A DNA stretch of 64,000 nucleotides from the NCBI GenBank assembly GCA_014155875.1, contig JACEFZ010022373.1:30001-94000 (forward strand), in the 5' to 3' direction. Under the pieces are notes generated by a model. It was not told the DNA's origin and searched no databases. It worked only from the letters and a program-made list of their open reading frames with translations. This stretch comes from Cepaea nemoralis. Lineage: Eukaryota > Mollusca > Gastropoda > Stylommatophora > Helicidae. Below, one piece after another: positions 9,330-62,861 of the stretch; positions within the stretch are counted from its first letter, which is position 1, and the number at the start of each line of letters is the position of its first letter. A program made the position numbers and the translations under genes.

Positions 9330-10141
9330 TGAAGAGAAAATACAACAGGGGGACATACCGCTCGTGTAGCAAACTAAACCCAGGAGATAGAGATTAATCT
9401 AACTCTAGAGCTGGTAAAATGACAGATAAACATATCGTGCAGAAGTGTCTATAAAACTGTTTTGGCATACACCATCTCCATTTAAAATTGCATTTCATGA
9501 CGATGTCCGCAATCTGAAGTCGACTGCAGCTTTGTCAGGAATTTGTGATACCGTAAAGTGAATTGCTTACGCACTGTTTCGTCACTGTGGCTCATTACAA
9601 ACGACAAGCAATTATTTGTAGGGTTTGATTTCCACATTCCTTTGACTGTGCCCAATCGACCTATCCATTGACCTTTCCGACATGATGAATCCTACAAATG
9701 GCTGCCTCACCAGCGGCGCAGCTACTTGAGGTCATTGAATGTAAGGCGAAGACACACCAGAATAGCTTCTGTGGAAGTATGAATGTCGATGTCTGAAAGC
9801 GTGCGAAAAAGGAGAAAACAAATGTATGAACACTACCCATGTTAGATGGTCTGCGTGGCTGAATGAATAAGAATACCCGCTTTTAAACCTCCGATGTGCT
9901 GCTGACGAGGTAGCGGTTACAGCTGGACTGACATTTTCTTCACTTTGTGTCGTAAAGTAAAAGTCTCAAGTCTTAGTAGGTTCACCTGATGGCGAATGAT
10001 ACTGGTAATATGGAAAGTTAGCCATCACGTAAAACTCAATCCAGTATGGATACGTCTTGAGTTCAAAGGGAACGATGTGTAACAGACATGCACTTACATT
10101 AGACAAAGTCAGTCGGGATTGTGTTGTCAGGAGTTGGCCAC

Positions 10142-10517
10142 TTATTCTTCTGGTGAGCGTTTTGTTCTCGGCTTGCGCATACACAGATAGGCGAGAACAG
10201 ACAGTACAATCAAAGCTGATATCAATGTCACCGTTAGAATAACGTGCAGTGTTTGGATGGCTAGTGGGATCAGATGTGTCACCAAACGTCTGCGTTGTGG
10301 TCTCCGCGCCATCTGTTGGCTGTGGCCTGCTGCTTGACAACACTAAGGAGTTCCCGGTACGAAATCTACTTGTGGTTTGCAATGGACTCGTTGTCCCACC
10401 GGTTTGCTGTGGGCTGGCTGTCCCTTCAGTCGGCGGTCTTGTCGGCGGGCCAAGAATGGGCAGCAGGGACTCTCTTTTTATGAAATTCAGCAAGGGGTAT
10501 TGTCCTTGTTGACAAAA
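10142..10517 (-). CDS. GH18 chitinase-like, last exon: barrel end, Ser/Thr/Pro linker, possible TM tail
   Basis: Starts after GTCACTCAG with FCQQGQYPLLNFIKRE, the usual end of the GH18 domain (F-C-x-x-G-x-Y-P-L). A linker of about 60 residues rich in Thr, Ser and Pro follows (for example TGGTTSPLQTTSR and AETTTQTFGDTSDP), typical of O-glycosylated mucin-like stalks. In this frame the ORF runs on to TGA at 9966-9968 with no recognisable domain. A second frame, open from about 10312, encodes a hydrophobic segment near 10243-10175 (VILTVTLISALIVLSVLAYL), then CMRKPRTKR and a stop at 10142. That looks like a type I membrane anchor. Reaching it needs a one-base frame change or an unseen small intron. 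A GTAAGT donor-like site near 10095 offers a third 3' structure. Confidence 0.7.
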
Positions 10518-10631
10518 CTGAGTGACAAATAAGAACCATGATTATGTCAATTCTCTGACTAGAATTTGAATCTGCAATTCACTATGCTGTTTCTATTCTA
10601 TTTCGCTTTTTTGTAATAAAGAAGTGGGAAA

Positions 10632-10748
10632 ACATGTATGACAGCTTTATATATCTCAAACGTGACAAAAACTTGTATAACAGCTTCATATATTCAATCA
10701 TGACAAAAACGTGTATAACAGCTTCATATATCTCAAACGTGACAAAAA
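10632..10748. repeat. Three tandem copies of a 38-39-bp unit
   Basis: Starts at 10632, 10671 and 10709 (ACxTGTATxACAGCTTxATA ending GTGACAAAA). Lies in the last intron of the chitinase-like gene. The rest of 10520-10810 shows nothing else. Confidence 0.85.
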
Positions 10749-10810
10749 GAGCACCCTGACAACATATAATATGTTACTTCACTGATTAAATGTCAAACAA
10801 TATGTAGGTT

Positions 10811-60984: not shown

Positions 60985-61440
60985 GGGGCAATTGGGGACG
61001 AATGATTGATGTTTGTATACGAGTTTGTGTGGGTGAATGATTTTTTCTCTTACACGGCTGTGTTGGTGACAATGATCCTCTTACACGGCTGTGTTGGAGA
61101 GAATGATTGATGCTCGAATACTTTTTTTTATTTTGGGTGGGGGGGGGGGGGGTGATAATTGATTTTCGTGTACGGGCTTGTAGGGGAGAATGATTGATTC
61201 TTGTATACGGGTATGTTCGGAAGAATGATTGATTGTCGTATACTGGTTTGTTGGGGAGAAAAAAATTGATTCACTTACACGGGTATGATGGGGACAATTA
61301 TTAATTCTCTTACACGGCTGTGGTGGGGAGAATGATTGATTCTCTTTCACGGGTGTGTTGGAGAGAGTGATTGATTCTTATAAACGGATTTTTGTTTTTG
61401 GAAGAATCATTTACTGACTCCCTTATACGGAGCTGTTTTT
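60985..61440. repeat. 36-bp minisatellite, locus 3
   Basis: About 12 diverged units (TCTTACACGGCTGTGTTGG, GAATGATTGATTCTTGTAT) with a TTTTATTTTGGGTGG and poly-G interruption near 61130-61152. It abuts the short LTR element. 61440-61680 holds nothing recognised. Confidence 0.9.
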
Positions 61441-61679
61441 GTCGACTGTGGATAGGAGAAAGAAAATCAAAAGGAGCGTTCTTGGGAAATGAGGCCAATC
61501 GGATCCATAGCTAGATGTTTGGCAAAACTAAAGAATCAGAAGAAGACAAACAGAGAAACAGACAGAGAGATTGAAATTGAAACAATAAGTAGACACAAAC
61601 AAAAGGACGTACTGAAAAAATGAAAACCAAGAGCAATAGTCATAATAATGCAAGAATGAAAAAAAACATAACGACTTAA

Positions 61680-62337
61680 TACATTAATGCATGAGAGACA
61701 GAAAGCATTGACATGGCCAGAAGACAGATAGGCAGACGCAGATAGATAGACATGCTAGCAGGCAGAGAGACATAGATATAGACAGACAGATAGAAAGAAC
61801 AACTGATAAACAGATAGAGGGCGAGGAAAAAAGACAGACAGACAGACAGACAGACAAACGACAGACAGACAGACAGACAGACAGACAGACAGACAGACAG
61901 ACAGACAGACAGACAGACAGACAGAAAAAATTGGCAACAGACAGAAAGAAAAAGAAAGAAAGAAAGAGATAAAGACATACAAAAATAAGGCAGAAATTCA
62001 GAGCAAAGACAGAAAGCAATTCCGAAAGACAGACAGACAGATAGACAGACAGACAGACAGAAACACAGAGAGAAAGAATGAAAGACAGAAAGAAAGAAAG
62101 AAAGAAAGAAAGAAAGAAAGAAAGAAAGAAAGAAAATAAGAAAGAAAGTACTAAGGAAAGAAAGAAAGAAAGAAAGAAAGAAAGAATGAAAGAAAGAAAG
62201 AAAGAATGAAAGAAAGAAAATAAGAAATAAAGGAGGAAAGAAAGAAACAATGAAAGAAAGAAAGAAAGAAAGAAAGAAAGAAAGAAAGAAAGAAAGAAAG
62301 AAAGAAAGAAAGAAAGAAAGAAAGAAAGATAGAAAGA
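61680..62337. repeat. CAGA / GAAA tetranucleotide tract
   Basis: Mixed GATA and CAGA runs at 61730-61925 and 62025-62060, then GAAA runs from about 62080 to 62335. Long Leu/Ser/Phe frames on the minus strand are artefacts. Confidence 0.95.
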
Positions 62338-62607
62338 TGAAGAACAATTCAAATTAATATCCTAGAAACGAATTAGCATAATAAAAGCAACCCGAGATTG
62401 ATCAAATCCTTTTATCTTCCGGCTTACCTGAACATCCCTAAACACCCTCGCACCTACCTTTATCTCTGTACTTTTATTATGTCTATTCCATGGAAACCTA
62501 ACATGCATCGTATTGCCCAGACAATTAACACGGGGATGATTGCAATGTCTTGCAATGACATAAGATAAACAATATGAAGATTGATGCAGTTTTGCCAGTA
62601 GTGTTAC

Positions 62608-62861
62608 CTGGAGAAGCCTCACCAGACCCGCCCCCATTAAAGGGGTGGTTGGGTGCTGCCAGTCTATGTCAAGGCCACTAAACCCGTACAGGCGTAAGAG
62701 ATCGATCACGTGTCTGGAAAAAGCCCGTATGTTGTCATCGGATTGCGTCATTGATACGAAGGCATTGTGGGCTGTTACATTTGGACCCCCAATAGACAGC
62801 AGCCTCCTAGAGTTTTTCGCGACATCTCTGGTGTTGAAGTCTCTGTTGATGCGATAAGACA
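62608..62861 (-). CDS. GH18 chitinase-like, exon 1 in window (SIGG and active-site strand)
   Basis: A 254-bp exon in phase (2 nt finish the previous codon, then 84 codons). It begins after AATAACAG and ends CTCCAG|GTAACA. It encodes the beta-3 motif LLSIGG, then a helix region (NIRAFSRHVIDLLRLYGF), then the beta-4 active-site strand read as SGLDIDWQHP. The GH18 consensus is DGxDxDxE, so the first Asp is Ser and the catalytic proton donor Glu is Gln (codon CAG at 62656-62658). The two inner Asp residues are kept. An N-glycosylation site (NVT) follows SIGG. A LINE F insertion lies just upstream of the acceptor. Reading stays open for about 250 nt past the donor, but family similarity stops at the GT. 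Confidence 0.88.

Follow-up and report, generated by a model that had tools for sequence, protein, structure and literature searches.

A land-snail GH18 gene of Cepaea nemoralis, spread over 52.7 kb, that lacks its catalytic glutamate and carries a predicted membrane anchor

YKL-40, YKL-39 and Ym1, the chi-lectins, have the GH18 fold without the catalytic glutamate (Glu) of that family, and they are secreted. GH18 proteins of this kind are held, in the account of PMC1945033, to be likely lectins. Oysters have membrane-anchored GH18 chitinases: Ca-Chit, as described in PMC4457423, and Cg-Chit, from a 2007 paper cited there, consist of a GH18 barrel, a Thr-rich stalk and a C-terminal transmembrane helix. 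Here we analyse a locus in a 64,000-nucleotide (nt) stretch of the land snail Cepaea nemoralis (contig JACEFZ010022373.1, positions 30,001 to 94,000, forward strand; "the window", whose own numbering is used below) that resembles both systems and differs from both. It appears to share the barrel, stalk and helix of the oyster proteins, though its stalk and helix lie in different frames, but where Ca-Chit is described with a pair of catalytic domains that both have an active centre, this gene has one domain and no catalytic Glu. It shares the missing Glu with the chi-lectins, which are secreted, unlike the presumably membrane-anchored land-snail group to which it belongs. It is very likely that the locus is one minus-strand gene of at least seven exons, plus one or more 5' exons that we did not find, and that it encodes a GH18 protein, membrane-anchored and catalytically dead, from a family of land snails (Stylommatophora).

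The GH18 signal was measured with a profile built from 47 relatives, excluding the window, the fungal proteins P0002-P0004 and the untrimmed form of P0006. As a chance control, 30 dinucleotide-preserving shuffles of the window gave maxima of 10.0 bits with the whole profile and 12.3 bits with a profile of the beta5 region. The whole profile matches six exons (Table 1), the weakest being exon B at 10.7 bits, which reaches 15.6 bits with the beta5-region profile. The exons joined together score 283.4 bits over profile positions 64-369; the score falls to 245.1 bits without exon B (-38) and to 243.3 bits without exon C (-40). Scanned singly against Pfam, exon A passes PF00704 (cut-off 29.6 bits), exons E and F match it below the cut-off, and exons C, G and H have no Pfam match; together with the score of the joined exons over the barrel, this places the protein in the GH18 family. 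When the joined pieces, leaving out exon B, were compared with the PDB, acidic mammalian chitinase 8fg5 was matched at E 3.8e-36; a snail homologue likewise recovered the exon pieces.

That these exons form one gene follows from their order, strand and phases and from a profile that is tiled once, as an initial annotation of the stretch had proposed when it described a single minus-strand GH18 gene with very long introns. The motifs it quoted (LLSIGG, SGLDIDWQ, YADYVILTAYD, GISAVGRF, ICEMM, MFASIDQDDF and FCQQGQYPLL) all occur a single time, in GH18 order along the minus strand; a further one, YED, is too short for searching and sits within the ICEMM exon. The junctions 34432 to 21354 and 13599 to 10517 fall exactly where it had placed them, and all six introns have the GT-AG borders it claimed. 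With borders placed from the sequence, the seven recovered exons span 62861-10142 on the minus strand; they total 1,219 nt against 51,501 nt in the six introns (3.1-19.0 kb each), a locus of 52.7 kb. The phases it had called compatible do agree around exon B (0 and 2), whose last two nucleotides are completed by exon C into NISR-YADYVILTAYDL; they fail at a frame break in 38557-38457 and at a frame change in the last exon. Exon A opens with two nucleotides of a split codon and closes on a codon border. The letter D is skipped in our exon names, as it would be the extra exon of an eight-exon model.

Table 1. Exons, introns and C-terminal segment of the GH18 gene, in order of transcription
Feature	Position	Strand	Length (nt)	Content
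Exon A	62608..62861	-	254	SYRINRDF..LLSIGGPNV..GFSGLDIDWQHP..RLLQ; beta3-beta4; PF00704 38.5 bits, GH18 profile 58.1 bits
Intron A-B	43653..62607	-	18,955	GT-AG; reverse-transcriptase open reading frame (ORF) 51104-52069 (+) inside
Exon B	43543..43652	-	110	ILREDINNETATDKLLLTVKCPAVHDNTSFYVPNIS + 2 nt; beta5; phase 0 in, phase 2 out
Intron B-C	38558..43542	-	4,985	GT-AG
Exon C	38457..38557	-	101	YADYVILTAYDLPQSQ, in-frame TGA 38508-38506, then ERGAWFGSPLYSQYVSV one frame over; donor gtaagt
Intron C-E	34618..38456	-	3,839	GT-AG; reverse-transcriptase ORF 36319-36807 (-) inside
Exon E	34432..34617	-	186	SSAIEEWLLEGLPVNKAVVGISAVGRF..GLAYPE; beta7 and following; phase 0-0; GH18 profile 53.3 bits
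Intron E-F	21355..34431	-	13,077	GT-AG; reverse-transcriptase-like ORF 21843-23078 (-) inside, below Pfam cut-off
Exon F	21238..21354	-	117	ICEMMSYGIKYFDRASQMHYLVVRNLWIGYEDKQSIAAK; phase 0-0; GH18 profile 30.7 bits
Intron F-G	13674..21237	-	7,564	GT-AG; reverse-transcriptase ORF 19798-20220 (+) inside
Exon G	13599..13673	-	75	IHWLKWLNISGVMFASIDQDDFKGT; beta8; groove Trp replaced by Ala; phase 0-0; GH18 profile 23.3 bits
Intron G-H	10518..13598	-	3,081	GT-AG
Exon H	10142..10517	-		FCQQGQYPLLNFIKRES, then Thr/Ser/Pro-rich stalk; TAA 10144-10142 in transmembrane frame; GH18 profile 15.7 bits
Transmembrane-like helix + basic tail	10160..10249	-		LHVILTVTLISALIVLSVLAYLCMRKPRTK..; frame differs from that of the stalk

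The product cannot be an ordinary chitinase, since its catalytic Glu is Gln and its groove Trp is Ala. Its motif FSGLDIDWQ has that Gln at the last position of the chitinase motif DxxDxDxE and Ser at the first Asp, and in MFASIDQDD the Trp of MxWxxDxDD is replaced by Ala; as a GH18 domain without the catalytic Glu, it is in that respect a chitinase-like protein and a putative chi-lectin. The initial annotation had called the gene chitinase-like, which is right in the sense of a catalytically dead relative; it quoted DIDWQ without noting the lost Glu. We compared these sites in a residue table of 27 rows (25 chosen from the 101 proteins returned by our searches, plus a trimmed P0006 and the window), with residues numbered as in human chitotriosidase. 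The catalytic Glu is absent from all nine rows of the land-snail group, the window included (Q, S, Y, M, Q, P, Q, V, Q; P0088 is a fragment), and is kept in 17 of the 18 rows outside it, the exception being marsupial CHI3L2. The equivalent of Trp 358 is lost in 8/8 group rows that cover the site and kept in 18/18 others, among them CHI3L2, the sole row of its kind in the table, so that the land-snail group differs there even from a row that shares its lost Glu. Trp 31 shows the same split (lost in 8/8 covering rows, which do not include the window; kept in 18/18 others), while Trp 99 is lost in all nine group rows but in 8 of the 18 others too. Across the group, DxxDxDxE keeps its last two Asp, save for one Asp to Glu change in P0006; the first Asp is lost, to Ser, only in the window among eight rows.

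The first protein search had returned three fungal proteins and a single close one, which comes from the land snail Candidula unifasciata. Follow-up searches, with the close Candidula protein and with an alignment, added further members from Candidula and from Bradybaena similaris, and the group now holds P0001, P0007, P0082 and the fragment P0088 of Candidula and P0005, P0006, P0008 and P0009 of Bradybaena. In a maximum-likelihood tree of 25 rows (midpoint-rooted for drawing only; P0088 and P0093, both present in the residue table, omitted; P0006 trimmed of its fused front), the window clusters with seven Candidula and Bradybaena rows with support of 100/99, and is thus a member of the land-snail group; two Biomphalaria rows (P0010 and P0011) stand next outside, the ten rows together again having 100/99. 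These nearest outsiders are chitinase-3-like protein 1 by name and keep the Glu and the equivalents of W31 and W358. Branching within the land-snail group is mostly unresolved. The Candidula and Bradybaena relatives match the window in having lost the Glu and, where covered, the groove Trp; they differ from it in overall sequence (the window's best identity is 40%), in the residue that has replaced the Glu, and in the frame breaks of the window copy. The family is multi-copy in both snails, and four Bradybaena members carry close locus tags (24740, 24741, 24742 and 24749), each on a contig of identical length. The front piece of P0006 (BsWGS_24742) recurs unchanged within BsWGS_24741; annotation has evidently fused these neighbouring paralogues. 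The predicted structure of P0005, a relative and not the window protein, has a barrel with N- and C-terminal helices (the latter at 418-448; pLDDT 89.5), and the best PDB matches of that fold are chitinases and chitinase-like proteins.

Both a stalk and a C-terminal transmembrane-like helix are present in exon H, in differing frames. The Thr/Ser/Pro-rich stalk lies in one frame, open to 9966, and LHVILTVTLISALIVLSVL, followed by its basic tail and stop codon, in another. Since the relatives finish in a stalk and a hydrophobic helix, we take the helix frame as the true end, and the gene's stop is likely the TAA at 10144-10142; position 9966, given earlier as the end of the gene, is indeed where the stalk frame ends and is probably not where the gene does. 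The six relatives with models that continue past the domain have a hydrophobic segment (mean hydropathy 1.84-3.26) that ends 8-21 residues before the C-terminus, after stalks that vary in length and in Thr/Ser/Pro content. A 19-residue segment of hydropathy at least 2.43 that is also followed by a basic tail occurs in 0.32% of 20,000 random stretches of the window, the window's best hydropathy being 2.56. Stalk and helix are separated either by a second frame break or by a small intron; exon H offers 20 GT-AG options of at least 37 nt that would join them, one of them 139 nt long. P0011, P0012 and P0014 (Biomphalaria and Haliotis) end in a hydrophobic stretch that leaves 0-3 residues before the C-terminus, unlike the land-snail arrangement of helix and tail, and presumably in the position of a glycosylphosphatidylinositol-anchor signal.

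Taken together, these features suggest a type I membrane protein whose barrel would lie outside the cell on a mucin-like stalk, with the single helix as its anchor. Judged from its residues, such a protein would not cleave chitin by the GH18 mechanism, and its function would most likely be glycan or protein binding, as a cell-surface lectin or receptor. Several points weigh against our description of the gene and its anchor. Taken by itself, exon C reaches 2.3 bits in one frame and 1.2 bits in the other, within the shuffle range, and rests on its context. The helix is not in the frame of the stalk, and a 19-residue segment at least as hydrophobic as 2.43 turns up in 6.2% of the same random stretches when no basic tail is asked for. 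Among the relatives, P0007 has a segment of just 1.84, not above the C-terminal stretches of Biomphalaria and Haliotis (1.61-1.87). Finally, the relatives are automatic gene models, one of which, P0006, is the fusion described above and stops before the tail.

The gene as written cannot make a full protein, because its frame is broken at least once. In exon C the first frame ends at the in-frame TGA, and the reading resumes one frame over, as far as the gtaagt donor (Table 1). When the exon is read through and the break itself omitted, an 11-residue loop runs from YDL to SPLY, equal in length to that of 7/7 land-snail relatives covering it. A run of six G at 38503-38498 lies past the TGA and therefore does not by itself explain the break. 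The window copy could be one paralogue among the several of its family, inactivated recently, or it could be an intact gene that has suffered assembly indels; we slightly favour the inactivated paralogue.

That the window holds a recent single-gene pseudogene, a paralogue whose frame was broken once catalysis had already been lost in the family, we regard as about an even chance. It would account for the TGA and frame break of exon C together with the frame change in exon H, and in a family that is multi-copy in Bradybaena and Candidula the loss of one copy might be tolerable. Every splice site is nevertheless intact, the exons as read contain no further stop, and residue conservation is no poorer than in the relatives: the window keeps 32 of the 37 residues that are invariant in the other seven rows (5 changes), while the relatives have 2 to 10 changes at 34 to 42 sites, 32 residues being kept in every row by construction. 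Decay of the window copy, if real, is thus recent. These same observations, with the survival of the helix and its basic tail, would also be expected if the gene were intact in the animal and its frame changes were assembly or base-calling indels. We consider this quite possible, if short of an even chance; with about 1.2 kb of exon, two such changes would imply a high rate of error, and the six-G run, lying past the stop, is by itself no cause of the break.

An intact gene of eight exons, its frame mended by an intron of 25 nt in exon C and perhaps by another small one in exon H, seems to us improbable, although the exon H intron taken alone may be real. A GT-AG pair 25 nt apart does restore the frame of exon C, and the GT-AG options noted above could link stalk to helix. 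Animal introns are usually longer than 25 nt, however, and the exon C option deletes residues that match the homologues' loop, scoring 269.4 bits against 283.4 for read-through. Inside the exon, twelve GT-AG pairs enclosing 13 to 76 nt would restore the frame; the four that we scored (25, 31, 40 and 46 nt) all fall below read-through. The initial annotation counted eight exons, of which we recover seven; the eighth would need the 25-nt intron within 38557-38457, at a cost of 14 bits, and appears to stem from that intron hiding the frame break, which fits its phase series of 0,2,2,0,0,0,0. Scattered fragments of several GH18 genes, an alternative suggested by the long gaps between pieces, are scarcely credible, since the profile is tiled once and in order with phases matching except at the break, and no second GH18 piece exceeds the whole-profile shuffle maximum on either strand of the window (the strongest other match, 9.1 bits at 58101-58433 (+), was under 10.0 and was dropped).

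The land-snail branch is probably a variant of the known membrane-anchored GH18 type, with the window gene one, probably damaged, member. We would tentatively extend this to a multi-copy family of cell-surface proteins built on a chitinase barrel, whose active site was emptied in a common ancestor (Glu and the Trp floor), leaving the former Glu position free to vary (Q, S, Y, M, P and V across nine rows) while DxDW was mostly kept (7/9), and whose members diversified as glycan or pathogen receptors, the window's being recently broken. No description of a dead membrane-anchored GH18 family of land snails was found in the open-access literature, judged by the title and start of the abstract of the matches listed. 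Annotation gives Achatina fulica 61 chitinase copies, read in PMC10295696 as a feeding advantage, and an enzyme table in the same paper gives GH18 (12). If the whole membrane-anchored branch is enzymatically dead, such counts of land-snail chitinases and their dietary reading may need correction, and, if so, a candidate class of snail surface receptors would be opened to testing. For annotation, the locus is a case of 52.7 kb that contain just 1.2 kb of exon, and its frame break would escape an ORF-based method.

The 5' end of the gene probably lies past the end of the window, in which no part of the domain ahead of beta3 was found. None of the 25 best matches of a profile of the N-terminal region falls within 62862-64000, the roughly 1.1 kb left upstream of exon A. 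The best of them (9.2 bits, 34332-34087, minus strand), from a profile run with no shuffle control, lies within a 48-bp tandem repeat and was judged to be chance.

The introns had been described as filled with transposons, and this is partly borne out. Among 20 of the 37 stop-to-stop ORFs of at least 130 residues, examined with Pfam, three inside introns contain reverse transcriptase above the cut-off (19798-20220, 36319-36807 and 51104-52069), and self-repeats within the window cover 24% of intron bases and no exon bases. Long repeat-bearing introns are unsurprising, since land-snail genomes are repeat-rich; for Bradybaena, PMC12042801 gives 61.28% repeats, with long interspersed nuclear elements (LINEs) at 19.51%. 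Further reverse-transcriptase matches below the Pfam cut-off lie at 21843-23078 and 49798-50463. The first of these, an ORF of 411 residues on the minus strand, scores 28.0 bits against a cut-off of 29.6 and has, by eye, a GIY-YIG-like stretch (CRCQAVYIGRTERQLNKRVSEH); we take it to be perhaps a Penelope-like element. A Flavi_M match at 46114-46593 (+), at 19.7 bits against a cut-off of 25 and with no single passing stretch, was taken as chance; by eye that ORF looks like the terminal part of a LINE reverse transcriptase. Searches of the window for tRNA genes and for Rfam families gave no match. Outside the gene are a reverse-transcriptase ORF (5996-6880) and an endonuclease (7402-8607), and a tandem array of about 77 copies of a 31-bp unit (1-2376) occupies the window edge. 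A 733-bp repeat of 96% identity has one copy downstream of the gene (8564-9296) and the other in intron B-C (39848-40578), and a direct repeat of about 596 bp and 98% identity in the first intron (58831-59424 and 60387-60982, about 1 kb apart) is perhaps a young duplication or element.

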